From Bacteroidota bacterium (GTDB lineage Bacteria; Bacteroidota; Bacteroidia; Flavobacteriales_D; Sanyastnellaceae): 64,000 nucleotides of DNA. The notes beneath the pieces are model-generated. The model ran no database searches, was not told where the DNA came from, and worked only from the letters and a program-made list of their open reading frames with translations. This document shows, piece after piece, positions 1,198 through 46,773 of the stretch (position 1 is its first letter; the number at the start of each line of letters is the position of its first letter). The DNA lies in the NCBI GenBank assembly GCA_027621555.1, contig JAQCBJ010000004.1, positions 1-64,000 on the forward strand. The letters run 5' to 3'. The translations under genes and the position numbers were made by a program.

Positions 1198-1205
1198 CGA
1201 AGGTA
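1198..1205 (-). promoter_or_regulatory. -7 type promoter element (TACCTTCG) of threonine dehydrogenase gene
   Basis: The minus strand reads TACCTTCG, a TAnnTTCG variant of the Bacteroidota -7 consensus. It ends 6 nt before the ATG at 1191, so the transcript should have almost no 5' leader. No convincing -33 element is seen. Confidence 0.55.
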
Positions 1206-1214
1206 GGGTCAGGG

Positions 1215-1222
1215 TACCTTTG
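1215..1222 (+). promoter_or_regulatory. -7 type promoter element (TACCTTTG) of queA
   Basis: An exact match to TAnnTTTG. It ends 1 or 4 nt before the two in-frame GTG codons at 1224 and 1227, so transcription should start at the start codon itself. It lies back to back with the opposite-strand element at 1198-1205. Confidence 0.6.
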
Positions 1223-1226
1223 GGTG

Positions 1227-2456
1227 GTGAACTCAAACGACTTTCATTACGACCTTCCTGAAGCGGCCATTGCCAAACATCCGGTGGAGCCCCGTCGCGC
1301 GGCGAAAATGGCCATTCTCGGTCGGGACGGCACCTTGAGCCACCGGACGTTTGAGGACTTGCCCGAGGCTCTTGTGCGAGAAGGCGTCGACGGCTTGTGG
1401 GCCAACGACACCAAAGTCCTTCATGCGCGCATTTTGGCCAGCAAAGCGACGGGTGGCCAGTTGGAGATTTTCCTGTTGGCGCCCTTCAAAGCGCCGGTGG
1501 AGGAGTCCTTGGCGGCCCGCAAGGAGGTCGTATGGACGGCCATGGTTCGCAACGCCAAACGATGGTCCGACGGCCGAGCCACCGCCGAGGGTCGCCGCCA
1601 TGTTCTCGCCGTGGAGCGCTTGTCCGATGCCGACGATGGCACGCGTGTGGTGCGCTTGTCGTGGGACGTCAAGAATGGGAACGATGGAGATTCGACGTTT
1701 GGGGAAGTGCTTGAAGATTTGGGGAAGACTCCGCTCCCGCCGTACATGCGTCGTGCCGCCCAAGATCAAGATCGCACGGATTACCAAACCGTCTTCGCCA
1801 TGGCACCGGGAAGCGTGGCCGCCCCGACCGCCGGGCTGCATTACGACGACCCATTGCTCGGAGCCTTGAAAGCGTCAGGGTGCCCCTTGCATCGGCTCAC
1901 GTTGCACGTGGGGGCAGGCACCTTCAAGCCCCTCGCGGAGGGTAAGGTGTTGGAGCACGAGATGCACGCGGAACGTTGCGTCTTGTCGCGCGATGCCCTC
2001 ACCACGATGGCGAACCAACGCGTTCGGGTGGCCACAGGCACCACCACGCTTCGGACCATGGAGAGCTTGTATTGGTGGTCTCTGCATCACCGCGTCCTTG
2101 GAACGTGGCCTGACGTGCTTCCTCAGCGGAGCCCTTACAGCTCTTGGGCTGTTCAGTCAGAATCGATGGGATGGACCGACCGCGACGCGTTGAATCACAT
2201 TCTTGAATGCGCGACTTGGGATGAACGGGGTGAAGTCACCTTCGAAACTCAACTCATGATCGTGCCAGGCTACCCCATTCGAATGGTGCAGGGATTGGTG
2301 ACCAATTTCCACCAACCCGGAAGCACCCTGCTGTGCTTGGTTGGAGCTTTTGTAGGGATGGAGGCGTGGAAGTCCATGTACGCACAGTGCCTCGCGCAGG
2401 ACTACCGCTTTTTGAGTTACGGGGACGGCAGCCTGCTTTGGTTGCCGGAGGAATGA
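1227..2456 (+). CDS. queA: S-adenosylmethionine:tRNA ribosyltransferase-isomerase
   Basis: A protein of about 409 aa that transfers and isomerises the ribosyl group of S-adenosylmethionine to preQ1 at the tRNA wobble position, giving epoxyqueuosine. Typical family segments are seen: an N-terminal FHYDLPEAAIAKHP, the central PTAGLHY, and the C-terminal VTNFHQPGSTLLCLV. It is longer than the roughly 340-350 aa of many bacterial QueA proteins, because of extra sequence between the central and C-terminal blocks, as in Bacteroidota members. The open frame reaches back to 1122, inside the divergent gene. I place the start at GTG 1227 (GTG 1224 is equally possible) because homology begins there and a -7 element lies immediately upstream. 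Confidence 0.9.
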   Translation: MNSNDFHYDLPEAAIAKHPVEPRRAAKMAILGRDGTLSHRTFEDLPEALVREGVDGLWANDTKVLHARILASKATGGQLEIFLLAPFKAPVEESLAARKEVVWTAMVRNAKRWSDGRATAEGRRHVLAVERLSDADDGTRVVRLSWDVKNGNDGDSTFGEVLEDLGKTPLPPYMRRAAQDQDRTDYQTVFAMAPGSVAAPTAGLHYDDPLLGALKASGCPLHRLTLHVGAGTFKPLAEGKVLEHEMHAERCVLSRDALTTMANQRVRVATGTTTLRTMESLYWWSLHHRVLGTWPDVLPQRSPYSSWAVQSESMGWTDRDALNHILECATWDERGEVTFETQLMIVPGYPIRMVQGLVTNFHQPGSTLLCLVGAFVGMEAWKSMYAQCLAQDYRFLSYGDGSLLWLPEE

Positions 2457-2472
2457 GAAGCGTTTAAAAGCA

Positions 2473-2499
2473 CAAACCCCGCCGGATGGGCAGGGTTTG
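2473..2499. terminator. Bidirectional terminator between queA and the foldase gene
   Basis: An inverted repeat with arms CAAACCCCGCC and GGGCAGGGTTTG around a short GGAT loop lies between the convergent ends of queA (2456) and the foldase gene (2525). The flanking A and T residues could serve both directions. Confidence 0.7.
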
Positions 2500-2524
2500 C
2501 AATGCGTTTCGGTTGTCGCTCAGA

Positions 2525-4588
2525 TCAGTTGAGTTGGCGACGGTTGTCTTCCACACCGGCTGCTTTTTGCATGACGCTGAGCACCGTGAACGGGAAGTTC
2601 GTGCGAGCACGCGTTGCGAGCGTGCTTTGCTCGTCGAGGTAGCTGTCCTTGCTTCCGGCAGGTGTGACGCTCGTTGGAGCAATCACCCAAACGCCGTACG
2701 TCCCCACAATCGGGCTCGACATGCTACCTTCTGGAATGGCGAAGGCCGCACCGGCCACTTGAGGTTCTGCAGAGGCACCGCTACCGCGAACGGTGGGGAA
2801 CTTGATGCTGAGGTCGCGCCCCGTTTTCACGGTCTCGCCAATGGCTGCCGCGATGTCTTCGAGGTTCGCACCGTTCATTTTTTCTGCGTAGAGCTCACCT
2901 TTCGCTTCGTTGGTGGCCCCTTCGCGCATCTCGTCTTCGACGTCCTTCAAGTCGGGGGTTCCCGCTTTCGTCGCGGCATCAAGGTGAGCCACGATGTAGA
3001 AGTCAGGCGTCAAGATGGGGTTCGACACTTCGCCTTCTTCACTGCGGTACGCCCAAGACACGATTTCCGCGGCGTCACGGATGCCCGCGATGGTGCGCGC
3101 TGCCGGGGCAATGCTGTTGGCTTCTCCCGTGGCGTAACCTGCCTCTTCTGCGGCCGAGAGGAGGCTCTCTTTGTCGGTGGCGTTGATGGCAAACTCGCTG
3201 GCCATGGCGTAGGCTTCACGAGCCGTGTTCGCAGAAGCTCCCACCGTGTTGGAGATGAAAGCCACGCGCGCTTCTTCAATTTCCGTGCGGCGGTCAAGAA
3301 CTTCAATCAAGTGCACGCCGTAGGTGGTCTCAACCCACCCCAACGACCCAATCGGCTGATTGAAGCAGAAGTCTTCAAAAGGCTTCACCATACGTCCTTT
3401 GGGGAAGAAATCGTACACACCGCCGGTGCTCTTGGATCCAGGGTCGCCGCTGAAGCGCTGCACCAAGTCGTCAAAATCTCCACCATTCCGCAACACGCGC
3501 TTCAAGCTGTCGGCACGAGCACCGAGCTCAGCCATCTCGGCCTCATCCTTGGCGTCCTTGGCCGTGAGCAAGATGTGGCGGCACTTGGCGGCTTCGTCAG
3601 GGGCCATCCCACGCTCGAGAACTTGGGCAATCATCATCTGGCCGTTCTTGGTGTACGGACCCACAACGGTGCCAACAGGTTCTGAGAAGAATTTGGATTC
3701 GTTCACGTCCAACTCCACCTGAGCCAACCGCAAGTTGCGGATGTCCTCCCGGCCTTCGTTGGCTGCCTTGGCGAACGCTTCTGCGTCTTCGGCATCGCGC
3801 CACTCTTCGGCAGTTGCCTCGAGTTTCACCTCCATGGCTTTGATGTCGGACTCGCTGGCTCCCAAAGGAATTTTCACGTAGCTGATGTCGCGGCCTTCGG
3901 TTTGCTGGTACTTGGGGTCGTCCTTGTGCGCGTTGTAGTAGCGCTTGACATCGCTGTCGGACACGTTCACCTCCGAGTCAGGGATGTTCTTGTACAGCTT
4001 AGCCACGTACTGGACTTCAGCCTTCTTTTCCGTGTTGATGTACTCGTACTTGCCTTCGAGGCTGTTGGTGTACAAGGCGTCGGTCAGCAAGGCATCCATC
4101 TTTTCCTTTTTGCGCTTGGCAATGATGAGCTTCTTGTAGCTCAACAGGTTCAGTTTGCCCTGATCCGTGGTGAGCATGGCACCGAAGTTTTGTTGCCAAA
4201 AAGCCTTGTTCTCGCCGTTGCTGAAGAAGGCACGACCCATGTAAGGGCTGTCCAAGCTGCCGAAGAGCATTTCCTGGAACTCCGCGTCCGTGACTTCCAA
4301 TCCGAGGGCGTCGTAGGTGTCGTCCAACACGATGTTGGCGGTCAGGTCACCCCAAACCTCATCTTGAAGCTGGTCGCCGGAGAATCCGAGTCGGCGGCGT
4401 TCGTCCAGTTCCATTCGGTAGTCCAACGCTGAGATGCTTTCGCCTCCAACACTGCCCACGTCGCGGGCATTGCCTTGGCCCATCAAGGCCAACACTGCGT
4501 CGTAGGGCACCAAGAAGCCCAACATTCCGATTCCGATCATTCCGAGCAACAGGCCTTGCCGGTTGCGGATTTTTTCAATCATTGCCAT
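2525..4588 (-). CDS. SurA/PpiD-like periplasmic peptidyl-prolyl isomerase
   Basis: A 687-aa membrane-anchored foldase. One hydrophobic segment at about residues 14-33 follows a basic MIEKIRNRQ start, giving an N-in, periplasm-out topology. A SurA_N-like chaperone region follows. A parvulin rotamase domain lies near residues 340-440, with CRHILL at its start, GSKSTGGVYDFFPKGRMV in the middle, and YGVHLIEVLDR at its end. The protein should help outer-membrane and secreted proteins fold in the periplasm. The start is ATG 4588; the frame extends to 4648, but the upstream part is leader carrying a TATCTTCG promoter element. It is the last gene of the minus-strand envelope cluster and probably has its own promoter. 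Confidence 0.88.
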   Translation of the reverse strand: MAMIEKIRNRQGLLLGMIGIGMLGFLVPYDAVLALMGQGNARDVGSVGGESISALDYRMELDERRRLGFSGDQLQDEVWGDLTANIVLDDTYDALGLEVTDAEFQEMLFGSLDSPYMGRAFFSNGENKAFWQQNFGAMLTTDQGKLNLLSYKKLIIAKRKKEKMDALLTDALYTNSLEGKYEYINTEKKAEVQYVAKLYKNIPDSEVNVSDSDVKRYYNAHKDDPKYQQTEGRDISYVKIPLGASESDIKAMEVKLEATAEEWRDAEDAEAFAKAANEGREDIRNLRLAQVELDVNESKFFSEPVGTVVGPYTKNGQMMIAQVLERGMAPDEAAKCRHILLTAKDAKDEAEMAELGARADSLKRVLRNGGDFDDLVQRFSGDPGSKSTGGVYDFFPKGRMVKPFEDFCFNQPIGSLGWVETTYGVHLIEVLDRRTEIEEARVAFISNTVGASANTAREAYAMASEFAINATDKESLLSAAEEAGYATGEANSIAPAARTIAGIRDAAEIVSWAYRSEEGEVSNPILTPDFYIVAHLDAATKAGTPDLKDVEDEMREGATNEAKGELYAEKMNGANLEDIAAAIGETVKTGRDLSIKFPTVRGSGASAEPQVAGAAFAIPEGSMSSPIVGTYGVWVIAPTSVTPAGSKDSYLDEQSTLATRARTNFPFTVLSVMQKAAGVEDNRRQLN

Positions 4589-4619
4589 AGTCCTCTGGCT
4601 TAACGTTTTTACAGGATTG

Positions 4620-4627
4620 CGAAGATA
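4620..4627 (-). promoter_or_regulatory. -7 type promoter element (TATCTTCG) of the foldase gene
   Basis: The minus strand reads TATCTTCG, a TAnnTTCG variant. It gives a leader of roughly 25-31 nt before ATG 4588. Confidence 0.5.
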
Positions 4628-4660
4628 ACATTTCCGGCGCAACTGCACACGCTCTCCGCG

Positions 4661-5950
4661 TTACGCGCTCCGTTCAGGATCAAATTCGACCCACATGATG
4701 CGGTTTTCTTCCACTTCTCGCACTACCAATTCGACGTCCTCCACCTCCACCACAGTCCCTTCTTCGGGGATGTCACCAACGGTGTGCAAGATGAGGCCTC
4801 CAAGGGTGTCGTAATGGTCCGATTCAGGTAGATTCCATCCGTGCAAGTCGTTGAGAACCCGCACTTCACGTCGCGCTGGAACGCGCCAGGTGCCGTTGTC
4901 CTGCACGTGTTCGACGTCCTCCGTTTCGTCGTCGTGCTCGTCGTCGATTTCGCCCAGCAATTCCTCCACGATGTCTTCCATGGTCAGGATGCCTGCAGTT
5001 CCTCCGAATTCATCGACCACCACGGCCAAGTGCCGCCGACGTTTCAAAAATTGCCGCAGCAATTCGTCTCCAGGCATGGGTTCGGGCACCAAAAACGTCG
5101 GAAGCAAGATGTCCTTCAACGATTCGGGACGATCAAACAGGTCCTTGGCGTGGACGTAGCCGACGATGTCGTCCATGTCGCCTTGGTAGACCACGAGTTT
5201 GGAGAAGCCGGAATCGGCAAACGCTTGCTGAAGCTCTGCAATGGAGGTCTCCAATTCCACGCCACTGACCTCGTTGCGGGGAATCATGCTGTCGCGGGCC
5301 TGGATGCTCGGAAGGTCCAAGGCATTCTGGAGAATTTGAAGCTCGTGCTCCAATTCTTGCTCAGGTTCCATGCGGCCACTTAACCCTTTGACAAAATGGT
5401 CCAAGTCGCTGACGCCAAGGCTTTCTACGGTGACCTTGACTTGCCCTCCTACGAAGGGCCGCAAAAGTGATTTGCTGATCATCATCACCACCCATGCTGG
5501 CAACGCAAGCACCCCAAACACCAACAGCAATGGCACTGCAAAGAGGTTGAGCCAAAAGTTGGGTGAGGCGTGAAAGAGCGATTTGGGCATGAATTCGGCC
5601 AGCACGAGGACCACGGCCGTGGTGACAAGCGTTTGGGTGGCCAGAACGGCCAAGGGCTGCGAGGCGGTTTGCCACCCTTCTACCTCAAAGAGCCATTGGC
5701 TGATCAAGGCTCCAGATTCCATGCCGCAAATGACCAAGGCCAAGTTGTTGCCCACCAGCATGGAAGCAATGAAGAGTTGCGGATGGTTGGACAGATAAGC
5801 GACAATCTTGCCGCGGAGGGACTGCTGGGCTTGCAATTCCGTTTGCAGGCGGCTGGAGGCAACAAAGGCCATCTCCATGCCTGAGAAAAAGGCCGAGGCC
5901 AACAAGGACAATGCGAGAATCAAAAGCGAACTCGAGGGGTCAGGATCCAT
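4661..5950 (-). CDS. CNNM/CBS/CorC-HlyC domain membrane protein
   Basis: A 429-aa protein with the standard layout of the HlyC/CorC family: an N-terminal CNNM-type membrane domain (hydrophobic segments within about residues 8-165), a CBS pair (about 205-330, including VVVDEFGGTAGILTMEDIVEE) and a C-terminal CorC_HlyC domain (about 345-425, with the DTLGG motif). Family members are linked to Mg or Co export, but the substrate cannot be read from sequence. It is a paralogue of GldE at 11118-12461. It lies between the small membrane protein gene and the foldase gene, a neighbourhood often seen next to lptC in Bacteroidota. A TATCTTTC element at 5973-5980 on the minus strand could be its promoter. 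Confidence 0.88.
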   Translation of the reverse strand: MDPDPSSSLLILALSLLASAFFSGMEMAFVASSRLQTELQAQQSLRGKIVAYLSNHPQLFIASMLVGNNLALVICGMESGALISQWLFEVEGWQTASQPLAVLATQTLVTTAVVLVLAEFMPKSLFHASPNFWLNLFAVPLLLVFGVLALPAWVVMMISKSLLRPFVGGQVKVTVESLGVSDLDHFVKGLSGRMEPEQELEHELQILQNALDLPSIQARDSMIPRNEVSGVELETSIAELQQAFADSGFSKLVVYQGDMDDIVGYVHAKDLFDRPESLKDILLPTFLVPEPMPGDELLRQFLKRRRHLAVVVDEFGGTAGILTMEDIVEELLGEIDDEHDDETEDVEHVQDNGTWRVPARREVRVLNDLHGWNLPESDHYDTLGGLILHTVGDIPEEGTVVEVEDVELVVREVEENRIMWVEFDPERSA

Positions 5951-5990
5951 GCAGGTAGGGGTAGGTCAAACCGAAAGATAGCACATCCTC

Positions 5991-6230
5991 TCAAAGCTCA
6001 CTCTCCATGCGCTTCCGAAACGCCCGACGCACGACAAACCACAACCATGCGATGCAGGGAAAGAGCCCCAGCGTCCATCGGGTCATGTCTTCCGTCACCC
6101 AAAGGTACCCGACGTAAATCGTGGTGGCGGCGGCGGCGACGAGCCAAAATTTCTCAGCCGCTTTGGCCGTCTTGTACGTCACCGAGGACGAAGGGTCGGA
6201 GGGTTGGATCATGGGGCAAAGATCATTCAA
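5991..6230 (-). CDS. Small two-helix membrane protein next to lptC
   Basis: A 79-aa protein with two hydrophobic segments, about residues 28-45 and 51-68, followed by a basic tail (RRAFRKRMESEL). I do not recognise a named family. Its start overlaps the 3' end of lptC by 8 nt, which suggests translational coupling; an internal ATG at 6212 would avoid the overlap. The conserved place between lptC and a CorC-like gene suggests an envelope role, but nothing in the sequence shows a mechanism. Confidence 0.7.
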   Translation of the reverse strand: MNDLCPMIQPSDPSSSVTYKTAKAAEKFWLVAAAATTIYVGYLWVTEDMTRWTLGLFPCIAWLWFVVRRAFRKRMESEL

Positions 6231-6873
6231 GGTCCTCGGTGGCGGACCCGTTGTTGGTCATTCCGAGTTCGAAGGAACCCGTCGGGGCCAAGATTTCGTA
6301 GCGCTCGAAGTGGCTGTCCGCGTTCAAACCGCGCCCGCGAAGCACCCCCTGTGCGGTTCGAATTTCTACCGGGCGTTGGGTTCTGACCAGGTCCGAATCG
6401 TGGGACCAAATGAGGTGTTCCGTAAGAAGCATGTCGCCAGCTTCATTGACCAGAACCACTTCTTCCCACGCCTCCAAACGGCCTTTTTGGTCGTCGTAGG
6501 TTCCCCGGACCGCCGAGAGTCGGGCGGTGTGTTGACTCTTCGTTCCACCGATGTACAAAGTGAATCCTTCGTCCACTTGCCAAAGGGGGTCCAATTCGGG
6601 TTCGCTGCCCGAGGTCTTCTGCTCCCAGCGTTCCAGCCGTGCCGCCTCCAAGGATTGCACGACTTTGCCCTTTTCGGTGTATTCAAAGTATCCCCCTTCG
6701 ACGACTTGGGCGGGCAGGCGCTGGTCCTCGTGACGGTCGTCCTGAACCCCGGTTTCCACGGTGGTTCCACATCCTTCGAAAGCAAGTGCCGAGACCAGTG
6801 CAAACGCAAAAACCGCCCATCCCCTGAAGGGTGAGCGGCTTTCGCAGCGCGTTGCCGACCGCAATTGCGGCAT
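6223..6873 (-). CDS. lptC: LptC-like LPS export periplasmic protein
   Basis: A 216-aa exported protein. A basic N-terminus and hydrophobic segment (residues 17-32) end in FEGC, a weak lipobox, so it may be a lipoprotein or anchored by its helix. The rest is beta-rich and resembles the LptC/YrbK family of Bacteroidota: repeated short strands such as EGGYFEYTEKGK, and a late segment about converting one form of strand to another, as in the bridge proteins that carry lipopolysaccharide from the inner-membrane ABC transporter to the LptA/LptD machinery. The start at 6873 overlaps the TPR gene stop by one base (TGATG). The frame is open upstream to 7119, but that part is a shadow of the TPR gene. 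Confidence 0.75.
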   Translation of the reverse strand: MPQLRSATRCESRSPFRGWAVFAFALVSALAFEGCGTTVETGVQDDRHEDQRLPAQVVEGGYFEYTEKGKVVQSLEAARLERWEQKTSGSEPELDPLWQVDEGFTLYIGGTKSQHTARLSAVRGTYDDQKGRLEAWEEVVLVNEAGDMLLTEHLIWSHDSDLVRTQRPVEIRTAQGVLRGRGLNADSHFERYEILAPTGSFELGMTNNGSATEDLE

Positions 6874-12476: not shown

Positions 12477-12959
12477 TTAGAAGGGCAGGTCGTCGGCCGA
12501 TCCGTCCGCCACGGCAGGTTGGGCCACAGGCTGTGCCGCAGGTTGGGCCACGGGCTGGGCTTGAGGCGCGGCGGCTTGTTGGGCCGCGGGTTGAGCCGCA
12601 GGGGCTGCTTGGCCTTCGCGTCCGGGTGCAGGTCCCAAGAGTTGCATCACGTCGCCGACCACCTCGGTGGTGTATCGGTTTTGGCCTTGTTGATCCTGCC
12701 ATTGGCGGGTCTTCAACTTGCCCTCGATGTACACCTGGGACCCCGACTTCAGGTACTTCCCTGCCGTTTCCGCCAAGCCGCGCCACAGCACCACGTTGTG
12801 CCACTCGGTGGTGGTGATGCGCTCGCCGGATGCGCGGTCGGTGTACGATTCGGATGTGGCCATGCGCAAGGTGCACACGGGGACGCCGCTGGGCGTGTAG
12901 CGCAATTCAGGGTTTTGACCGAGGTTGCCTACCAAGATGACTTTGTTGATGCCTGCCAT
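12477..12959 (-). CDS. ssb: Single-stranded DNA-binding protein
   Basis: A 160-aa protein with an N-terminal OB fold (residues 1-105, starting [18 protein letters not shown]), a low-complexity Ala/Gln/Pro linker (about 108-150), and the acidic tip ADDLPF that recruits repair and replication partners. It protects single-stranded DNA. The start at 12959 fits the family N-terminus; the longer open frame to 13070 is a shadow of mutY. A TACCTTCG element ends 4 nt before the ATG, so the mRNA is predicted to be leaderless or nearly so. Confidence 0.95.
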
Positions 12960-12963: not shown

Positions 12964-12971
12964 CGAAGGTA
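12964..12971 (-). promoter_or_regulatory. -7 type promoter element (TACCTTCG) of ssb
   Basis: The minus strand reads TACCTTCG, 4 nt from the ssb ATG at 12959. It lies inside the gap of 17 bases between mutY and ssb, so ssb can be transcribed apart from mutY. Confidence 0.55.
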
Positions 12972-12976: not shown

Positions 12977-14053
12977 TTACGCGCGTTCTGATGCGGTCCA
13001 AACGTCGGAGAGTTCCTCCCACATTTTGGTCAAGAGTCGTGGCCGCGCGAGCGCACCCAACTCCTCCCACGTCATGACGTAGGCCGCGACTTCGTCGGCA
13101 TAGGATCTGAGGCTCGCTTCATCCGGCGCTTGCCATCCGTGGAACGAGGCCGTAATGCGGCGGTGCGACAAGATGTGCGTCACGGGGTCGAACAGCAGCC
13201 CGAGGGCCGCGAAGCGATTGGATGGCGGCCCTTCCGGGAAGGTCCACATCTTCGCCCAAACCCCCGAGTCCGGACGCTGCACCACGACCACCAAATCCCC
13301 GCAGGTTGCGACGTGCCAATCCAAGTCCCATGGCACAGGTTTTTTCTTAGGCTGTTTCACGGGCAAGTTGGTCCACGCCTCTTCGCGCCCTGCGCTCGTG
13401 CACGTCGCTGCGAGGGGACAAGTCCCGCACTGGGCGGCGCGCGGGGTGCAAACCAGGGCTCCGAGCTCCATCACGGCCTGGTTGTGGTCTCCGGGGTGAT
13501 TCGTGTCCAGGAGGGCATCCGCCACGAGCCCGACGGCGCGTGCTCCATCTTTGCTGTCCACCGCTTGACGGATGCCAGCCCAGCGTGCCACCACGCGTTG
13601 CACGTTGCCGTCCACGGCCGCCACGGCTTCCCCCAAGCCGATCGACGCGATGGCTGCGGCGGTGTAGGGGCCGATCCCGGGAAGGGCCAACCACTCGGCG
13701 TGCGTCGAAGGAAAGTCGCCCGCCTCGTGGATGGCCTTCGCGGCGCGGTGCAACAACCGAGCCCGGCGGTAATACCCCAAGCCTTCCCACGCCTTCAGCA
13801 CCTCGTCTTCCGTCGCGCGCGCCAAATCGGCCACGCTCGGGAACGCCTCCCGGAAGGCATGCCACTTCGGAACACCCGTCTCCACGCGGGTTTGTTGCAA
13901 CATGATTTCGCTGAGCCACGTGCCGTAGAGGGAGGGCTCTGAGCGCCACGGCAAGTCGCGAGCGTGCCCCAAATACCACGTTCTCAATGCCTTTTGGGCC
14001 ACAGTCGTGCGCTTGGGGTCCAAAGAATTTTGCAAGAAACCCTGGTCATTCAT
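12977..14053 (-). CDS. mutY: A/G-specific adenine DNA glycosylase
   Basis: A 358-aa base-excision repair enzyme that removes adenine paired with 8-oxoguanine. Helix-hairpin-helix [12 protein letters not shown] is followed by VDGNVQRV with the catalytic aspartate. A perfect [4Fe-4S] cluster motif has cysteines spaced C-X6-C-X2-C-X5-C ([17 protein letters not shown]). The C-terminal NUDIX-like domain recognises 8-oxoG and includes [14 protein letters not shown]. The start is ATG 14053 rather than the open frame to 14086, because a TACCTTTG element ends 8 nt before it. It is divergent from the HU gene. Confidence 0.95.
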
Positions 14054-14061
14054 TTCGTTTT

Positions 14062-14069
14062 CAAAGGTA
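14062..14069 (-). promoter_or_regulatory. -7 type promoter element (TACCTTTG) of mutY
   Basis: The minus strand reads TACCTTTG, an exact match, 8 nt before ATG 14053. It lies beside the divergent HU promoter. Confidence 0.6.
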
Positions 14070-20219: not shown

Positions 20220-21437
20220 ATGGATTCTGGACGCAAAGCCATCAAAGCCCTCGCACGTGAGGCGGCCCTTCTTCCCCAGGAGGAATTGCTGCATGCCAAA
20301 CAGGGGCACGCCGAATTGACCATTGGCATCCCCGCAGAGACCAGCCTTCAAGAAAAGCGGGTTGCACTCGTGCCGGAGGCCGTTGCCCTGCTCGTTGCCC
20401 ATGGGCACCAAGTCCTTGTGGAAACCCAAGCGGGAGCGGAAGCCCAATTTTCTGACAACGACTACAGCGAGTCTGGCGCGCGCATCGTGTACGACCGACG
20501 ACAAGTCTTTCAGGCCAACATCGTTTTGAAAGTCGAGCCGCCTTCGCTCGAGGAGGTGGAGTTGATGGGCATGCGTCAAACCCTCATTTCCGCGCTTCAA
20601 TTGAGCGTCCAAAACGAGGGTTTGCTCGAGGCGTTAAGCGCCAAGAAAACAACGGCCATTGCTTGGGACTTTGTCCAAAACGAAAATGGCATTCAACCGT
20701 TGGTTCGCGCCATGGGCGAAATCGCGGGAAACACCGCCGTGCTTCTTGCAGGCGAGTTGATGGCAAGCGTGAGCGGCCAGGGCACCATGCTCGGTGGCGT
20801 GAGCGGGGTACGGCCCAGCGAAGTGGTCATCCTCGGTGCGGGCACCGTCGGCGAATACGCCACGCGCTCGGCGCTGGGACTTGGTGCAAGCGTCAAGGTG
20901 TTTGACAACTCGGTCCACCGCCTCATCCGCCTCCAAAATGCCGTAGGCCAGCGCCTCTGGACGTCGACCCTCCAGCCTTCCGTGTTGGAAGAGGCGTTGC
21001 GCACGGCGGACGTCGCCATTGGCGCTGTTCGGGGCTCCGGTTCGCGCGCTCCCATGTTGGTCAGCGAGCCCATGGTTGCGGGCATGCGCGATCGATCCAT
21101 CGTCGTGGACGTGAGCATCGACCGTGGAGGGGTGTTTGAAACCTCGCGACTTACGAGCCACGAACGCCCCACGTTCATCGAATGCGGAGTGATTCACTAC
21201 TGCGTACCCAACATCCCGTCCCGGGTGTCGCGCACCGCGAGCAAGGCCTTGAGCAACATCTTTGCCCCCATGCTTCTCGGTGTGGCCGGCGAGGGAGGGG
21301 TGGTTCCGTCCATCAAGGAGCACAACTTGATCCGCACCGGGGTATACATGTTCAACGGCACCCTCACCAACGAGGAAATTGCGTTGCATCGGAACCTGCC
21401 ATGGAAGCCACTTGATTTGTTGGCGGCCACCCTCTGA
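20220..21437 (+). CDS. ald: Alanine dehydrogenase
   Basis: A 405-aa NAD-dependent enzyme that interconverts alanine and pyruvate plus ammonia. It has the N-terminal domain start TIGIPAETSLQEKRVALVPE, the dinucleotide-binding VVILGAGTVGEYA at about residues 199-211, and the C-terminal YCVPNIPSRVSRTAS. It carries about 32 extra N-terminal residues before the usual family start, including QEELLHAKQGHAE, as seen in the long Bacteroidota form; a pyridine nucleotide transhydrogenase alpha subunit is less likely given the single-chain length. It is convergent with mutS after 14 bases. Confidence 0.88.
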   Translation: MDSGRKAIKALAREAALLPQEELLHAKQGHAELTIGIPAETSLQEKRVALVPEAVALLVAHGHQVLVETQAGAEAQFSDNDYSESGARIVYDRRQVFQANIVLKVEPPSLEEVELMGMRQTLISALQLSVQNEGLLEALSAKKTTAIAWDFVQNENGIQPLVRAMGEIAGNTAVLLAGELMASVSGQGTMLGGVSGVRPSEVVILGAGTVGEYATRSALGLGASVKVFDNSVHRLIRLQNAVGQRLWTSTLQPSVLEEALRTADVAIGAVRGSGSRAPMLVSEPMVAGMRDRSIVVDVSIDRGGVFETSRLTSHERPTFIECGVIHYCVPNIPSRVSRTASKALSNIFAPMLLGVAGEGGVVPSIKEHNLIRTGVYMFNGTLTNEEIALHRNLPWKPLDLLAATL

Positions 21438-35060: not shown

Positions 35061-35068
35061 TACCTTTG
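35061..35068 (+). promoter_or_regulatory. -7 type promoter element (TACCTTTG) of the glycosyltransferase gene
   Basis: An exact TAnnTTTG match ending 5 nt before ATG 35074, so the mRNA should start at or next to the start codon. Confidence 0.6.
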
Positions 35069-35073
35069 AGCAC

Positions 35074-36204
35074 ATGGCGCGCATTGCCTTGAACGGACGA
35101 TTGTTGGTGCCCGGCAAGATGGAAGGAATCGGGAGATTCACCCTCCGCTGCTTGGAGGGTTTGGTCGCGTTGCGCCCCAACGACTCGTTTTTGCTCCTGG
35201 TGGATCGGCCGGACGATGACTTGTTCCATTTGGGACCCAACGTCGAAGTACGTCGAATTCGCATCCCGGCACGCCGACCGTGGCTGATTCGTTGGTGGTT
35301 TGGCCGGCCGATGAGTCGGGTCTTGAAGTCCTGGAAAGCCGATGCATTTGTGTCGTTGGAGGGCCCTGTTGCCACCCAGATGCCATCTGATTTTCCGCAA
35401 TTGTCCGTCATTCACGACTTGAACTTTGAGCACCGGCCAGAGGGTTTGCCTGCCCGATGGGCGAATTACTACACCACGGAATTCCCCAAATACGCGAGGC
35501 GTGCGGACGTTCTCGGAACCGTGTCTGAATTCAGTCGCCGGGACTTGGGACGCACTTACGGGCTGGACGCATCGGCCATCCAGGTGTTTTCCAATGCGGC
35601 CGACGAGTTGTTCCAACCAGCGGCGGATCGGGATGTCGATCGAGCTCAGAAATCGTACGCCGAAGGACGTCCGTATGTTTTGTTCGTCGGTTCGTTGCAC
35701 CCCCGCAAAAACGTGGAGGGACTGCTCGCCGCCTTTGAAATGTATTGCAGGCAGGGTGGTTCATGGGACTTGGTCGTGGTGGGGGTGGCCATGTGGTCCG
35801 AGGCGCTTCCTCGAATGTCCGAGGAGGTCGCGCCGCGCGTGCATTTTGCGGGCCGACTCGATCAAGGCGACCTCGTTCTCGCCGTTTCCGGGGCGCGGGG
35901 CCTTGTGTTTGTGCCTTGGTTTGAAGGGTTTGGGGTTCCTGTGGTGGAAGCCATGGCCTGTGGCGTTCCCGTCATTGCTTCCAACGTCACGTCACTCCCC
36001 GAGGTCTGTGGGGATGCCGCGTTTGCGCTGGTCGACCCTTCGGAGACGTCTTCCATCGCGGCCGAGATGACCCGGTTGGAGTCAGATCCTGAGGCGGCCG
36101 TTGAGGCGGCGGAACGTGGGCTGCGACGTGCCAAGGAATTTTCGTGGTCGGCGACAGCCGCCAAACTGAGCGCCGCTCTGAACCTCATTCTTCCTGAATC
36201 ATGA
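35074..36204 (+). CDS. GT4-family glycosyltransferase
   Basis: A 376-aa GT-B enzyme. The N-terminal half begins MARIALNGRLLVPGKMEGIGR. The C-terminal donor-binding half has VLFVGSLHPRKNVEGLLAAF, then FEGFGVPVVEAMACGVPVIASN, which carries the E-X7-E motif typical of GT4 retaining enzymes. It probably adds a sugar to a lipid-linked polysaccharide made with the divergent wzz/wzy genes. The open frame starts at 34981, but the promoter element and homology indicate ATG 35074. It overlaps rnhB by 4 nt. Confidence 0.9.
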   Translation: MARIALNGRLLVPGKMEGIGRFTLRCLEGLVALRPNDSFLLLVDRPDDDLFHLGPNVEVRRIRIPARRPWLIRWWFGRPMSRVLKSWKADAFVSLEGPVATQMPSDFPQLSVIHDLNFEHRPEGLPARWANYYTTEFPKYARRADVLGTVSEFSRRDLGRTYGLDASAIQVFSNAADELFQPAADRDVDRAQKSYAEGRPYVLFVGSLHPRKNVEGLLAAFEMYCRQGGSWDLVVVGVAMWSEALPRMSEEVAPRVHFAGRLDQGDLVLAVSGARGLVFVPWFEGFGVPVVEAMACGVPVIASNVTSLPEVCGDAAFALVDPSETSSIAAEMTRLESDPEAAVEAAERGLRRAKEFSWSATAAKLSAALNLILPES

Positions 36205-40998: not shown

Positions 40999-41026
40999 TC
41001 TCAAAGGGCCACTAACGAACGACGAG

Positions 41027-41061: not shown

Positions 41062-41066
41062 CCCCG

Positions 41067-42740
41067 ATGATTTGGATGAAATGGCTGTTGAGTGTGCTGG
41101 GAGGCCTTGGGGTCTTTCTGTTTGGCATGCGAACGTTGAGCGACGCCATTCGACGCGTCTCGGCAACTTCGTTTCGCGAATTTTTGTCCAGCATCACCCA
41201 AAGCACTTGGGTAGGTACGGTGACCGGCATGTTCGTCACGAGCCTGCTTCAATCGAGCTCTGCGGTGACAGTGACGTTGGTGAGTTTGGTGAATGCCGGG
41301 TTGCTGACCATTCGTGAATCCGTTGGTGTCTTGTTTGGCGCCAACATCGGCACCACCATCACGGCTTGGCTCATTGTCCTCTCACTTGGAGGGTTTTCGC
41401 TCAGCGACATGGCGTTGCCCATTGCGGGACTCGCGGTTCCACTCCTTTTGATGGAGCGCCGGTTGCCACGTCAGATTGCCAACATCATGATTGGCTTTGC
41501 CTTGCTCTTCATCGGTCTGGGATTGCTCAAGGGCCAAATGGAAAGCGTCGGAGCTCGCGAACTCTTCACGTCCATCTTCCCGGACGGCAGCGGGGGATTT
41601 GGGCACAACGTGCTTTTCCTGCTTATCGGCGCGGCGTTGACAGCGCTGATCCAATCGTCCTCCGCGGCCACCGCACTGACCTTGGCCGCCATGGTGTCGG
41701 GCTTGATTGGCCTTGAGAGCGCCCTAGCCATGGTGCTCGGGGAAAACATTGGCACAACCTTGACGGCCAACCTTGCCGCGTTTGTGGGCAACCGAGCCGC
41801 GAAGCGGGTGGCACGCATCCATTTTCTGATCAACGCCTTGGGGGCGGTGTGGATGATTGGCCTCATTCCATTCATGGCGGACGTGTTGACCAACATGTTC
41901 TCTGCCGCAGAGACGGAAGATGTGCGAAACGGCTACGCGCTGGCGATGTTCCACACGGCCTTCAACGTGCTGAATGGTCTTGTGATGGGCTTGTTCATCG
42001 ATTCGCTGGTCAAGTTGTCCAAGAAGCTGGTGTGGGTGGAGGATCCGGAAGGGGAGTCGTCCTTTTCCTCCGTAGCCATTCCGGGGCGCATTGTGGACGC
42101 GCGTTTGAGCCTGGAAGAGGTCCAAAACGACTTCCGACGCAGCGCATCCCAACTCAAACGCATGGTTCAAGGGGTGGAAGATCTGTTGGGGATTCTTGAA
42201 TCGGAAGACCACGTGGACGTCATCAACCACATGGTCAAATGGGAAGAACGTACCGACCGCATCGAACAGACCATCAACGCCAAACTTTCCGTCGTAGCTC
42301 AGCAAGAGCTTAGCCCGGAGTTGAGTGGGCGACTTGCAGCGTTGTCGGCGATCAACCCGGATTTTGAACGAGTAGGAGACATGCTCTTGAGCATGGCTTG
42401 GCAGCTCGACGGCAAGGAGCGTGAAGGGGTGTTTTTTATGCCGCGCCAAAGAACCAATGTGCTTCAGATGTTGGGCTTGTTGAAGGAAGCCATTCAAGTG
42501 ATGGACAACCAGCTCAAATCCACGGCGGTGGATTTGGACGCCGTGGCGGAGGTTGAAGGCAAAATCAATGCACTTCGGAAGCAGCTCCGTGACAAGCACC
42601 TGAAGGACGTCGAGAAGGGCAAATACTCCGCTTCAAGCGGCGTCCTGTACGCTGAGTTGATTTCCTCTCTGGAGGAATGTGGCGACCGCATTGCGCACGT
42701 GAGTGCGCAGCTCGCAGGGACGTGGTCCGAGGAGGATTAA
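41067..42740 (+). CDS. Na/Pi cotransporter (NptA-type) with PhoU-like C-terminus
   Basis: A 557-aa inner-membrane protein. Two inverted copies of the Na/Pi signature are seen, QSSSAVTVTLVSLVNAG (about residues 64-80) and QSSSAATALTLAAMV (about 195-210), within eight to nine hydrophobic segments, and GANIGTT/GENIGTT pairs follow each. The C-terminal 200 residues form helices like PhoU (LEEVQNDFRRSASQLKRMV, DFERVGDMLLS). It should move phosphate with sodium, direction unknown. The start is ATG 41067; upstream codons lie in the terminator. Its stop overlaps the stop of the converging lipoprotein gene by 4 nt. Confidence 0.88.
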   Translation: MIWMKWLLSVLGGLGVFLFGMRTLSDAIRRVSATSFREFLSSITQSTWVGTVTGMFVTSLLQSSSAVTVTLVSLVNAGLLTIRESVGVLFGANIGTTITAWLIVLSLGGFSLSDMALPIAGLAVPLLLMERRLPRQIANIMIGFALLFIGLGLLKGQMESVGARELFTSIFPDGSGGFGHNVLFLLIGAALTALIQSSSAATALTLAAMVSGLIGLESALAMVLGENIGTTLTANLAAFVGNRAAKRVARIHFLINALGAVWMIGLIPFMADVLTNMFSAAETEDVRNGYALAMFHTAFNVLNGLVMGLFIDSLVKLSKKLVWVEDPEGESSFSSVAIPGRIVDARLSLEEVQNDFRRSASQLKRMVQGVEDLLGILESEDHVDVINHMVKWEERTDRIEQTINAKLSVVAQQELSPELSGRLAALSAINPDFERVGDMLLSMAWQLDGKEREGVFFMPRQRTNVLQMLGLLKEAIQVMDNQLKSTAVDLDAVAEVEGKINALRKQLRDKHLKDVEKGKYSASSGVLYAELISSLEECGDRIAHVSAQLAGTWSEED

Positions 42741-43231
42741 GGAACGGCCAGCGCGTCGGTCACCGCTTCGTTGCTCGGGTTGAGGTCGCGGTCCCAAAGA
42801 GTCCATGTAAACCGCACGGAGTCGGCCGAGGTTCCCACGAGGTGCCAGGAGGTCAAGGCGAGGTCAATCGTGCCGTCCAAGGCTGGGCTTGACCCGGTGG
42901 GCTCGGCGACGGGGACGCGGTACGCGAAGGGCACCAAGAGGTTGGGGACGTTCCAGGTTTCGTTTTCCCATTCTTGGTATTCTCCCACCAAATTGAAGTG
43001 GTGCTCGCAGGTGGCACAAAACGGAGGAAGCGTGTCGGCTTGCGTCAGCCCAACGTTGCCGTCACCGTCCGTAAATCGAAGTGTGAGCGTGGCCGTGCCA
43101 TCGCTGTGCGTCACAAACCGCTCCACGGCCAAGGTCGGTTCGTCGGGGTACATGGGATCCGGCAAACAACCGAACCAAGCCCAGCACAAGGCCATGACCA
43201 TCGTAGCTGGGAAAATTCTGCGGCGAACCAT
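42737..43231 (-). CDS. Small lipoprotein, unknown function
   Basis: A 164-aa protein with a signal peptide and lipobox WFGC (Cys22), so an outer-membrane or periplasmic lipoprotein. The mature part has the extracellular Ca-binding-like FTDGDGNVG and a CATC cysteine pair. Similar Bacteroidota lipoproteins annotated as hypothetical carry the same FxDxDGDIG-type segment. It is convergent with the Na/Pi gene (4-nt shared end) and divergent from the LuxE-like gene. An exact TAGATTTG element lies 4 nt before the ATG. Confidence 0.78.
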   Translation of the reverse strand: MVRRRIFPATMVMALCWAWFGCLPDPMYPDEPTLAVERFVTHSDGTATLTLRFTDGDGNVGLTQADTLPPFCATCEHHFNLVGEYQEWENETWNVPNLLVPFAYRVPVAEPTGSSPALDGTIDLALTSWHLVGTSADSVRFTWTLWDRDLNPSNEAVTDALAVP

Positions 43232-43235
43232 GACA

Positions 43236-43243
43236 CAAATCTA
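43236..43243 (-). promoter_or_regulatory. -7 type promoter element (TAGATTTG) of the small lipoprotein gene
   Basis: The minus strand reads TAGATTTG, an exact match to TAnnTTTG, ending 4 nt before ATG 43231. Confidence 0.58.
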
Positions 43244-43277
43244 CCGACATGGGCGGAGCTTTCCGAACTTGCCGGTC

Positions 43278-44351
43278 ATGTCAATGGCCTTTGAAGATTG
43301 GGGGAGCGATGCGTGCATGGACGACGTTCGCTGTGCGCTTCAGGGTTGGATGAATGCAGGCGACAAGGAGGGGTTCGAAGAGCGAGCGCTGGCCTTGTTT
43401 CGGTGGCAATGCGCCCACAACTTGGTCTATTACACATTTGTGTCTGCGCTCGGAGTGAATCCAGCTCAGGTCAAGGACGTGCAAGACATCCCGTTTTTGC
43501 CGGTGGAGGTGTTCAAGTCTCACTGCGTCCAAAGCGGTCAGTGGGAACCGGCACACACCTTTCGGAGTTCCGGGACCTCTCAGGCCGTTCAGCGCGCCCA
43601 GCACCACCTCGATGACTCTGGTATGGTGTGGTACAGGCAGGTTGCGCGGCGAGCTTGGAAGGAGGTGTGGGGGCACGACGTGTCGTCTTGCGCATGGTTG
43701 GGGCTGTTGCCGGGCTATGTGGGGCGCGAGGATGCCTCGCTTTTGGCCATGGTGTCGGACTTCTTGGAACAATCCGGAGGGTCTCACGAATCCATGCTGA
43801 TGAACAATCACACGGCGCTGATGGAGCGGTTGGGAGCGTGGGCGTTGGAAAAAGGGGGGCGGCCCATGGTGTTGTTCGGCGTGACGTGGGCCGTGCTTGA
43901 TTGGGTGGATGCGCTCGAGTCGAATCCACTTTGGGCTGAAGGCATTCCATGGGAGCGCGTGACCCTGATTGACACGGGAGGAATGAAAGGTCGGGGCGTA
44001 GAGCCTGTTCGCGAGGAGGTTCGAGCGCGAATTCATCACGTGCTTCCCAGGTTGAAGCTTGCGTCCGAGTACGGCATGACGGAAATGATGTCCCAAGGGT
44101 ACGCGTTGGATGGCGTGCATCACGTGTTCCCCAAATGGGTCAGACCCGTTGTTCGGGACCTTCGAGATCCCCGTTCTGCAGAGCTTGAGAACCGAACGGG
44201 ACGGCTGGATGTCATCGATTTAGCCAATGTCCACAGCTGCGCATTCCTCGCCACGGGGGATGCTGCCCAGCGCGTTGAGCAAGGGGTGATTCTGCTTGGT
44301 CGAACCGACCACTCTGAGGCGCGTGGTTGCAGTTTGTTGGCTGCTCCGTAA
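43278..44351 (+). CDS. LuxE/PaaK-like acyl-protein synthetase (acyltransferase)
   Basis: A protein of about 357 aa of the LuxE-like branch of adenylate-forming enzymes. Visible features: the N-terminal block ALALFRWQCAHNLVYYTFVSALGV, the phosphate-loop-like FRSSGTSQAVQRAQ, the segment PMVLFGVTWAVLDWV, SEYGMTEMMSQGYAL (the adenylation A5-type motif) and the late TGRLDVIDLANVHSCAFLATGD. LuxE activates acyl groups and normally works with an acyl-CoA reductase; none is present here. Several in-frame ATGs exist (43230, 43278, 43284); 43278 fits the family start best. No clear promoter element is seen. Confidence 0.82.
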   Translation: MSMAFEDWGSDACMDDVRCALQGWMNAGDKEGFEERALALFRWQCAHNLVYYTFVSALGVNPAQVKDVQDIPFLPVEVFKSHCVQSGQWEPAHTFRSSGTSQAVQRAQHHLDDSGMVWYRQVARRAWKEVWGHDVSSCAWLGLLPGYVGREDASLLAMVSDFLEQSGGSHESMLMNNHTALMERLGAWALEKGGRPMVLFGVTWAVLDWVDALESNPLWAEGIPWERVTLIDTGGMKGRGVEPVREEVRARIHHVLPRLKLASEYGMTEMMSQGYALDGVHHVFPKWVRPVVRDLRDPRSAELENRTGRLDVIDLANVHSCAFLATGDAAQRVEQGVILLGRTDHSEARGCSLLAAP

Positions 44352-44417
44352 ATCATAACACCATTTCGTTGGCAGACTGAAATTCGTGGGGCATCTTGCG
44401 CCCGCAACAGCGACCCC

Positions 44418-45467
44418 GTGGAATCCCTCTTCGCCCTGCTCGGTTTTGCCTTGGCTGCCTATTCGGTGGTCGGGAACGACAGCATCCAAACTTTGGGGAC
44501 GTTCCTCGTGTCGAACGACGGTCGGAAGTGGTGGCACCTGTGGATTTTTGCAGGCACCATCATGGCGGTGGTGGTCACGCTCGGCTATTTAGGGTACGGC
44601 GAATACCTCGGGGGAAAAGGCGATGACCTCACGTTTGGCAAGTTTGACGGCATCTTCAAGGATGGTCAAGTGTTTCCGACCATCAGCGCGTGGTACGTTT
44701 TGCCTCCCCTTGCGTTGTTGTTTATCACGCGCTTGGGCATTCCCGTGAGCACGACGTTTCTGGTCCTGACCTTTTTCGCCCCCAAGGCACTGCCGCAAAT
44801 GCTCATCAAAAGCCTCGGAGGTTATGGCGTGGCTTTTGGTTTTGCCATCGTGGCATTTTTCATCCTTAGCCGATTCACGGAACGCTTGTTCATGCGGCAC
44901 CCTCTCGAAGAGGAGGGACATGGTCTGTGGACCAACCGGCGGTTTTGGACTGTCTTGCAGTGGGGCTCCACCGGTTTCTTGTGGAGCCAGTGGTTGACCC
45001 AGGATTTGGTGAACATCATGGTGTACCTCGGCGATCCTCGAGACGTGGGATTGGGCACCTTTGCCTTCGCGTTGGGAACGTTGTTGGTGATGTTGGGCTA
45101 CATCTTTTACCGCCGAGGCGGCAAAATCCAAGAGATTGTCCGCGTCAAGACCAACACCCAGGACATCCGTTCGGCCACCTTCATCGACTTCTTCTACGGC
45201 CTCGTGCTGTTGCTTTTCAAGTTCGACATGCTCGGAATCGGGGCGAAAATTCCGATGAGCACGACATGGGTCTTCTTGGGGATGCTCGCCGGCCGTGAAG
45301 TGGCCCTGCGTCTTCGCCTCGAGGAGGCCCATCAAGACGGGAAGCGCGTGGCCAACATGGTCTTTTCCGACCTTGGCAAAGCCACCATTGGGTTGGTGGT
45401 CTCCGTGCTGCTTGTGGTCTTCCTCTACCTGGTGGAAGGGCGAGACTTGACCCTGCTCTTCAGCTAA
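44418..45467 (+). CDS. PiT-related inorganic phosphate permease-like membrane protein
   Basis: A 349-aa protein with about nine to ten hydrophobic segments. Two inverted motifs recall the PiT phosphate transporter signatures: GNDSIQTLGTFLVSN near residue 19 (compare GANDVANAFG) and PVSTTFLVLTFF near residue 110, with PMSTTWVFLGMLAGRE near residue 275. The match is distant, so the substrate is uncertain. It starts with GTG 44418. It lies two genes after the Na/Pi symporter-like gene. Confidence 0.72.
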   Translation: MESLFALLGFALAAYSVVGNDSIQTLGTFLVSNDGRKWWHLWIFAGTIMAVVVTLGYLGYGEYLGGKGDDLTFGKFDGIFKDGQVFPTISAWYVLPPLALLFITRLGIPVSTTFLVLTFFAPKALPQMLIKSLGGYGVAFGFAIVAFFILSRFTERLFMRHPLEEEGHGLWTNRRFWTVLQWGSTGFLWSQWLTQDLVNIMVYLGDPRDVGLGTFAFALGTLLVMLGYIFYRRGGKIQEIVRVKTNTQDIRSATFIDFFYGLVLLLFKFDMLGIGAKIPMSTTWVFLGMLAGREVALRLRLEEAHQDGKRVANMVFSDLGKATIGLVVSVLLVVFLYLVEGRDLTLLFS

Positions 45468-45482
45468 GAATTCGCTTAGGGG

Positions 45483-46760
45483 TTAGCCTTCGATGCGTAC
45501 CAAGAAGTAATTCTTCTTGCCCCGTTGCAACAGAATCAAGCCCGAACCAATCGCATCCGCGATGCCGACCACTTTGCTGTCGTCCACCTTCGATTTGTTG
45601 ACGCTGACACTGCCTTCTTTCAGCGCACGGCGGGCTTCGCCGTTGCTCGCCAAAAAGGGCGTGTCTCCTCCCGCCAAAAGGTCGATGATGCCCACACCTG
45701 CTTCGAGTTCATCTCGGGACACGGTCCGTTGTGGCACCCCCTCAAACACGCTTAGCAATTCGGATTCTGGCAAAGCGCGCAGATCCTCTTCGGAGCTCTT
45801 TCCAAACAACAACCCACTCGCCGCAATCGCGGTGTCGAGGTCGTTCTGACCGTGAATCCGTCGGGTGACGTCCTCCGCCAAGGCTTTTTGCATGGCACGG
45901 GCTCCCGGGTTCTCCGCATGGGCGGCCTCGATGGCTTCGATTTCCTCGCGGCTGAGCAGCGTGAAGATGCGCAGGTACCGCGCGGCGTCTTGGTCCGCGG
46001 CGTTGATCCAGTACTGGTAAAACTTGTAGGCTGACGTGCGGTTCTTGTCGAGCCACACGTTGCCTCCTTCGCTCTTTCCAAACTTCGATCCGTCCGCCTT
46101 CGTGATCAAGGGAGCAGTCACGGCAAAGGCTTGTCCACCACCCTTTCGACGGACGAGCTCCGTGCCGGTGACAATGTTGCCCCATTGGTCGCTGCCACCC
46201 ATTTGGACTTTCACGCCATGCTCCTTCCACAAGTGGTAGAAGTCGTAGCCTTGGACAAGCTGGTACGTGAACTCCGTGAAACTCATGCCGCTTTCGAGGC
46301 GGTTTTTCACACTGTCCTTCGCCATCATGTAGTTGACGGTGATGTGCTTGCCAACGTCGCGTATGAAGTCGAGGAAGGTGAAATCCTTGAACCAGTCGTA
46401 GTTGTTGACCACCGTGGCGGCGTTCTCTCCACTAAAGTCCAAAAACTTCTCCAGCTGCGCTTTTTGGCACGCGAGGTTGTGTTGAAGCACGTCGACGTCG
46501 AGGAATTGACGTTCTGCCGTTTTGCCGCTGGGGTCGCCGACCATGCCTGTGGCTCCCCCCACTAGGGCCACGGGTGTGTGGCCTGCCCGCTGCCAGTGCA
46601 CAAGCAGCATGATGGGCACGAGGTTTCCGATGTGGAGGCTGTCCGCCGTGGGGTCAAAACCCACGTAGGCCTTCACGCGCTCTTGCGCCATCAGCTCCTC
46701 GGTGCCGGGCATGATGTCATGCAGCAGCCCGCGCCATTTCAATTCTTCGATCAACGACAT
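45483..46760 (-). CDS. tyrS: Tyrosyl-tRNA synthetase
   Basis: A 425-aa class I synthetase with the HIGH-type motif HIGNLVP (about residues 42-48), the tyrosine-binding GGSDQWGNI, the KMSKS-type motif KFGKSEGG and a C-terminal S4 RNA-binding domain. It charges tRNA-Tyr. An exact TATCTTTG element ends 5 nt before the ATG, in the 20-base gap after murF. It is convergent with the PiT-related gene. Confidence 0.96.
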
Positions 46761-46765
46761 GGTCG

Positions 46766-46773
46766 CAAAGATA
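46766..46773 (-). promoter_or_regulatory. -7 type promoter element (TATCTTTG) of tyrS
   Basis: The minus strand reads TATCTTTG, 5 nt before ATG 46760. Its upstream region lies within the end of murF. Confidence 0.6.

Follow-up and report, generated by a model that had tools for sequence, protein, structure and literature searches.

Seven genes in a 64,000-nucleotide (nt) stretch of DNA from a Bacteroidota metagenome-assembled genome (MAG) carry an exact -7 promoter element, TAnnTTTG or TAnnTTCG (together TAnnTTYG), a few nt upstream of their start codons, and this arrangement is real and general in the lineage. The stretch, here called the window, has a guanine-plus-cytosine (GC) content of 0.59 and is contig C98 of a 2.12-Mb genome in 129 contigs that is 92% complete. 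This genome is labelled G000 and belongs to genus g1 and family f1 of our comparison set, in which G numbers stand for genomes, L numbers for loci or stretches, and g and f numbers for genera and families. The TyrS protein of the window shares 92% identity with that of the MAG "Flavobacteriales bacterium isolate CPC84" and 90% with that of the MAG "Bacteroidetes bacterium isolate casp150-mb.187"; names of relatives hint at sea water as the habitat. The elements very probably belong to promoters that the ordinary Bacteroidota sigma factor recognises and that yield leaderless or near-leaderless mRNAs, and their placement is a trait of this lineage. Leaderless mRNA as a kind is known; a Bacteroidota lineage that uses it so heavily, as predicted here, would be new.

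Seven elements of the window and their orthologues

All seven octamers that the initial annotation had named are present at the positions and on the strands given, with gaps (the number of nt between the end of the -7 element and the start codon) of 4, 4, 4, 5, 5, 6, and 8 nt. On the minus strand, TACCTTCG at 1198..1205 lies 6 nt from the ATG at 1191 of an NAD-dependent epimerase/dehydrogenase gene (247-1191), the threonine dehydrogenase gene of the initial annotation; the queA-like gene on the plus strand (1227-2456, with a GTG start at 1227) has TACCTTTG at 1215..1222, at a gap of 4. Further along, TACCTTCG recurs at 12964..12971 on the minus strand with a gap of 4 to the ATG at 12959 of ssb (12477-12959), and TACCTTTG at 14062..14069, on the same strand, has a gap of 8 to the ATG at 14053 of mutY (12977-14053), for which a leader of about 3 to 4 nt is predicted. 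The group 1 glycosyltransferase gene (35074-36204) is preceded by TACCTTTG at 35061..35068 on the plus strand, with a gap of 5 to the ATG at 35074. The remaining two are again on the minus strand, namely, TAGATTTG at 43236..43243, with a gap of 4 to the ATG at 43231 of a putative lipoprotein gene (42737-43231), and TATCTTTG at 46766..46773, with a gap of 5 to the ATG at 46760 of tyrS (45483-46760). Each of the seven ends in an exact TTTG or TTCG; the latter departs from the TAnnTTTG consensus at one position.

The products of queA, ssb, mutY, tyrS, and the group 1 glycosyltransferase gene matched family profiles. The names threonine dehydrogenase (tdh) and lipoprotein are those of the initial annotation: the profile matches of the former product were to NAD-dependent epimerase/dehydratase families only, and for the latter no family profile match was found.

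The claim that seven elements are far above background was borne out, since 7 of the 49 called window genes have the element, whereas 2000 rounds of dinucleotide-preserving shuffling of the upstream 60 nt of each gene averaged 0.06 genes, with a maximum of 1. The starts used here for queA, mutY, the glycosyltransferase, and the lipoprotein are the codons of the initial annotation; with the starts of our gene finder alone, only tdh, ssb, and tyrS carry an exact element at gap 4-8. The starts of queA, mutY, and the glycosyltransferase are backed by relatives, and that of the lipoprotein gene is less firm. A search of the other called window genes for an exact element at gaps 3-9 found it in none. 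Single-mismatch elements at these gaps precede five window genes, with starts at 20220, 26699, 41067, 48082, and 50971, and the best element of recG (start 60891), previously listed as a weaker case, has two mismatches.

Orthologues retain the gap, including those whose start codon has shifted or whose spacer bases differ. In the following counts the genus includes the genome of the window, and, except in the genus counts of queA and tdh, rows with identical sequence were left out. The queA element has a gap of exactly 4 to the aligned GTG in 10/10 genus loci, the eleventh genome (G404) having given no match, and the tdh element is kept at gap 4-7 in the same 10/10 loci as well as in L120 and L121 outside the genus. 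The glycosyltransferase element has gap 5 in all 11 genus genomes and, among the other eight family genomes, gap 5-6 in two and gap 9 in one, with none in five. Similarly, ssb has gap 4 in 8/8 genus genomes seen, and the other eight family genomes show gap 4 in three, gap 7 in one, and no element in four. Gap 8 of mutY is found in 9/9 genus genomes seen and in 0/8 other family genomes. The exact lipoprotein element is present at gap 4 in 6/10 genus genomes, three of the other four show TAACATTG at the same gap, one base off, and outside the genus an element at gap 5-7 was found in 5/8. For tyrS, the gap is 5 in L021 and L022 and 6 in L028.

The queA orthologues outside the genus illustrate that element and start codon move together. 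Relative to the aligned genus start, the start codon in 5 of the 8 other family genomes (L121, L123, L124, L130, and L132) is shifted 4-8 codons upstream, and the element is shifted along with it, at a gap of 4-6. The queA element was not seen in three family genomes (L120, L129, and L131) and three genomes of the order (L125, L126, and L128). The remaining rows are matches of 27-30% identity that were read as the other queA paralogue.

Two side observations concern these genes. The QueA of the window (1227-2456), 409 amino acids (aa) long, is a second paralogue that has about 60 additional residues; G000:C63:17253-18290 holds a shorter QueA-like gene, whose 363-aa frame is 36% identical to the window QueA in its main part. 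At mutY (window 14054-14069), the 8-nt spacer [AG]AAACGA[AC] is itself kept in 9/9 genus genomes seen, which exceeds the needs of spacing alone.

Element-to-start distance across the genome

The initial annotation had proposed a genome scan for the distance from element to start codon. When it was run on 464 kb (22% of the genome; the window plus 20 stretches of 20 kb), a sharp peak emerged at gap 4. Counted independently of gene calls, TAnnTTYG-N4-ATG has 29 occurrences, compared with 0-8 for each of the other gaps between 0 and 25 and a mean of about 3.1 at gaps 10-25; the reversed-motif control gave 5 at gap 4 and 0-12 at other gaps. Genes were called by a purpose-written coding-potential finder that is blind to upstream sequence (393 genes in 464 kb), and 28 of the 29 gap-4 occurrences share frame and stop with a called gene; 16 of these coincide with its called start, 7 lie downstream of that start, and 5 upstream. 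Among 374 regions upstream of called starts, TAnnTTYG was found at gap 4-8 in 27, of which 17 have gap 4, and five control motifs (reversed, complemented, reverse-complemented, and two shuffled) gave 0, 1, 2, 1, and 0. Over the whole genome, TANNTTYGN4ATG occurs 129 times and the reversed pattern 23 times.

The same holds for a congener pool of 824 kb and 675 genes, made up of this genome, G401, and G395, with a gap-4 count of 53 against about 5, of which 22 are of the TTTG form and 31 of the TTCG form. The commonest form of the element is TACCTTYG. One-mismatch elements are slightly in excess at gap 4 (for example, TTGG 8 and TTYC 9 in the pool) and were excluded from the counts. An element at gap 3-8, here called leaderless-type spacing, precedes 64 of the 675 called starts, three control motifs giving 1, 4, and 0; when in-frame alternative starts from -90 to +60 are admitted, the number rises to 85, with controls of 2, 5, and 1. 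Leaderless-type spacing thus concerns a minority of about 9-13% of genes in the genus, and most genes must therefore still initiate otherwise.

The meaning of the peak follows from the published position of the element. In Flavobacterium psychrophilum the TAnnTTTG box is reported at -12 to -5 (PMC9723704), and in F. johnsoniae an element-to-start-site distance of 4 or 5 nt is given, with T-12, A-11, T-8, T-7, T-6, and G-5 near-invariant and G almost absent at -10 and -9 (PMC6847099). With a gap of 4, +1 thus falls on the A of ATG, and the modal gap equals the published spacing from the -7 element to the transcription start. In line with the F. johnsoniae rule, G occupies 6 of 56 spacer cells in 28 aligned gap-4 sites. 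The expectation that the mRNAs start at or next to the start codon thus appears sound for gaps of 4-5; it would need amending for gaps of 6-8 (tdh and mutY), where a leader of about 1-4 nt is predicted.

In the 85 leaderless-type genes of the pool, a second exact element was sought in the intergenic sequence to -150 (4,826 bases) and found in 0/85, although the other 590 genes, with 2.33 per kb, would lead one to expect about 11. It thus looks as if the near element takes the place of an upstream one, with weaker or other promoters possible besides. Leaderless-type spacing is most frequent where divergent genes are 30-99 nt apart (26/69) and rare in overlapping operon genes (1/89). Enrichment of Shine-Dalgarno (SD) sites upstream of starts was found neither in these 85 nor in the 590 other genes: SD-like tetramers at -18 to -5 occur in 2/85, where the element itself occupies the place, and in 38/590, with 9 and 66, respectively, at -48 to -35. 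A 16S match was sought in the MAG of the window, and none was found.

Two candidate signals were tried and rejected, one of them only in large part. A -33 TTTG partner element was found in none of the 85 leaderless-type genes; TTG occurs in at most 4/85 at any offset, with 4 at -33. The -33 element is weak or missing in F. johnsoniae as well (PMC6847099), TTTG at -33 being reported for Bacteroides fragilis, and because F. johnsoniae also has no evident -33 element, its lack is not treated as defining. The other candidate was C at position -1 as a signature of the transcription start. C precedes ATG in 27 of the 29 gap-4 occurrences in the 464 kb and in 78% of the leaderless-type class. It does so, however, in 64-69% of ATG starts in the genomes of genus g1 and in 67% of close or overlapping operon genes, and the candidate was mostly rejected. 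CCATG is a general start context in the genus (window, L001-L020, and L200-L217), and C at -1 is found at only 13% in the Flavobacteriaceae loci introduced below.

Distribution in the phylum and the TTCG form

The signature is strongest in one genus and weaker in its family. Of a phylum sample of 395 genomes, whose table was read by eye, G000 has the top pattern-to-control ratio (129:23), followed by G136 (73:14), which has only short contigs, and G018 (10:2). The gap-4 ratio over control is 5.3-13.0 in 11/11 genus genomes, 1.7-5.4 in the other 8 family genomes, and 0.8-2.3 in 11 genomes of other families of the order.

The share of elements at leaderless-type spacing was compared between lineages at called starts, in up to 60 nt of intergenic sequence, two cases at gaps 0-2 being left out. 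Exact elements lie at gap 3-8 in 26/57 cases in the genome of the window (46%) and in 37/68 in G401 and G395 (54%); the family genomes G411 and G407 gave 6/13 and 7/12, and G045 gave 6/16. The corresponding figure for 39 Flavobacteriaceae loci is 20/185 (11%), with 129/185 elements 15-32 nt upstream; these loci all surround tyrS, and their genes are not independent. The pooled difference between genus and Flavobacteriaceae has a p value of about 1e-14. G105, from another family with a high gap-4 ratio (f25), is intermediate, with 8/30 elements at gap 3-8 in 179 genes. Leaderless initiation had been suggested as a coherent answer of the phylum to its missing SD sites; the mostly distant elements of the Flavobacteriaceae speak for a lineage trait instead.

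Gaps of 9-14 are sparse in both groups. The genus has 7 elements in this range, compared with 63 at 3-8 and 17 at 15-20, and the Flavobacteriaceae have 3, compared with 20 and 46. Because of this shared scarcity, the data suggest two initiation modes, with leaders of about 5-10 nt avoided.

At gap 4, every one of the 11 genus genomes has a clear excess of the TTCG form of the element, as do G411 and G407, and in the remaining six family genomes this excess is weaker or missing; among 11 genomes of other order families, only G419 has the form slightly in excess (34 vs 20). The ratio of TTCG to TTTG is 38:33 at leaderless spacing and 16:38 at leadered spacing (p=0.01, relatedness ignored). Neither of two candidate origins was supported. 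An RpoD-type search of five genus genomes gave one full-length match each and one weak partial one, which leaves a second primary sigma factor behind TTCG unsupported; the RpoD-type matches of all 15 genomes searched fall below the curated cut-off of the family. The segment compared, which we take to be sigma region 2, is in the genus only a few residues apart from that of Gramella, Aquimarina, and Flavobacterium genomes, later parts differing more, and no residue difference obviously accounts for the TTCG form.

A separate observation concerns G041, a genome of the same order and another family, which shows a gap-4 pattern of the TTTG type (128 vs 33) without the TTCG form and 5/24 elements at gap 3-8 in 163 kb. 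It is possibly a second leaderless-leaning lineage.

Readings of the signature and divergent gene pairs

On the reading that we consider very probable, a single Bacteroidota-type primary sigma factor would recognise the -7 element, as TAnnTTTG or its variant TAnnTTCG, and the placement of the element would make RNA polymerase start on, or a few bases from, the first base of the start codon. The mRNA would then have no leader at gap 4-5 and one of about 1-4 nt at gap 6-8, and translation would be initiated on the 5'-terminal AUG or GUG. The remaining genes would either belong to operons or have leaders, most of which would measure about 11 nt or more. A more far-reaching proposal is made only tentatively, and we would sooner expect it to fail than to hold: that in family f1 leaderless initiation is the main start mode for the first gene of a transcription unit, with the transcription start setting the translation start, leaders of about 5-10 nt avoided, the lineage-specific TTCG form marking the leaderless class, and compact divergent regions of 33-35 bp with both genes leaderless letting promoters occlude each other.

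Several findings weigh against leaderless promoters as the explanation. In L023-L027, tyrS lacks an exact element at gaps 2-9; L023 has an element 22 nt upstream of the start, and L025 one 20 nt upstream. The mutY gene holds gap 8 exactly and is thus not strictly leaderless. There is no -33 TTTG, and the C before ATG is weak support for a transcription start, because this context is general and includes operon genes. Counted per gene, the contrast with the Flavobacteriaceae shrinks to 63/665 against 20/543 (p 6e-5), the latter from the non-independent tyrS-centred loci. Finally, the starts come from a purpose-written finder, and 21 of the 85 leaderless-type genes have the element only at an in-frame alternative start. 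Freedom to choose such starts also fills the bins 9-14, 15-20, 21-26, and 27-32 with 22, 39, 34, and 40 elements, compared with 8, 17, 14, and 8 at called starts; these extra counts are partly the same elements viewed from different starts. Since the other six-gap bins fill as well, 85 is an upper figure.

The start codons being predictions, with 5 of the 28 in-frame gap-4 matches upstream of the called start, the -7 elements might be real and the true start codon a later in-frame one, so that the mRNAs would have ordinary leaders. This is improbable, as the family profiles of ssb, queA, and tyrS align from residue 1-4 of the proposed protein, orthologues keep the gap and not the element alone, and the element-to-start distance peaks at a single value. 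We give the same low probability to the element being a translation-context or DNA-binding motif near starts, with the mRNA beginning further upstream. The missing -33 element would fit such a motif, as would the preference for TTCG at leaderless spacing, which a pure promoter reading leaves unexplained. The element nevertheless equals the published Bacteroidota -7 consensus, including the scarcity of G at two spacer positions; it is frequent in closely spaced divergent genes and rare in overlapping operon genes, and the genes that have it carry no other exact element upstream. An artefact of chance or composition in a GC-rich MAG was worth considering, the seven cases having been picked by eye from about 46 genes. 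It is hardly credible in view of the shuffles, the reversed and permuted motifs, the orthologue conservation, and the recurrence of the gap-4 peak elsewhere in the genome and throughout the 11 genus genomes.

Leaderless promoters of the ordinary sigma factor, our preferred reading, can be set beside known systems. Promoters of the Bacteroidota primary sigma factor (sigma-ABfr) share the octamer, the primary sigma type, and the G-poor spacer with those described here; they differ in that in the genus TTCG is about as common as TTTG at gap 4 and the element abuts the start codon. Leaderless mRNAs have been reported in the phylum at low levels, namely, 5.5% in F. psychrophilum (PMC9723704) and about 3.7% of 5' untranslated regions under 10 nt in Bacteroides thetaiotaomicron (PMC7366714), and for F. 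johnsoniae 87% of leaders, among genes with a probable promoter, are given as over 10 nt (PMC6847099). Phylum, promoter type, and missing SD sites are common to these species and the present lineage, in which, however, 26/57 and 37/68 elements are at leaderless spacing, figures that are sequence-based whereas the published ones are RNA-based. The leaderless transcriptomes of Mycobacterium, Deinococcus, and further groups likewise have a promoter element just upstream of ATG or GTG in a substantial share of genes, but in other phyla and with other promoter consensuses. A prediction across bacteria gave leaderless shares of 19.2% for Actinobacteria and 39.4% for Deinococcus-Thermus, and, on a Pribnow-like signal, identified one Bacteroidetes/Chlorobi genome among 37 with such genes (2.4%), its authors flagging a possible underestimate for Bacteroidetes (PMC3160421). 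Genomes of the Fibrobacteres-Chlorobi-Bacteroidetes (FCB) group have been described with AT-rich non-canonical sites (PMC9581028), and nucleotide biases in Bacteroidetes have been said possibly to stem from leaderless mRNA and/or S1 (PMC5397173). A literature search, with most subscription journals outside its reach, found no report of a leaderless-rich Bacteroidota lineage.

The findings bear on the way in which Bacteroidota select a start codon in the absence of SD sites, a question for which the account of F. johnsoniae ruled out leaderless mRNA as the answer in that species (PMC6847099). The present lineage, with about half of its exact -7 elements near starts at leaderless-type spacing, offers a natural experiment in this respect. 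If the prediction is true, promoters could predict start codons, which would be useful in annotating these MAGs. Orthologues such as tyrS seem to switch between leaderless and leadered forms and offer themselves for comparison. The leaderless prediction is directly testable with 5'-end data.

Divergent pairs in which both genes are leaderless-type were found seven times within 300 bp in 824 kb. In the window, the divergent intergenic region 1192..1226 between tdh and queA measures 35 bp and holds both -7 elements, and it is kept in genus relatives. The seven pairs are located at window 1191-1227, L004 14328-14401, L200 2387-2451, L201 1231-1292, L203 11898-12097, L209 9725-9759, and L213 19607-19642. 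The L209 pair is the G401 orthologue of the window pair, and the L203 pair is weak, with gap 8 on both sides and a TTG start. Three of the pairs are only 33-35 bp apart, and two polymerases should therefore exclude each other there.

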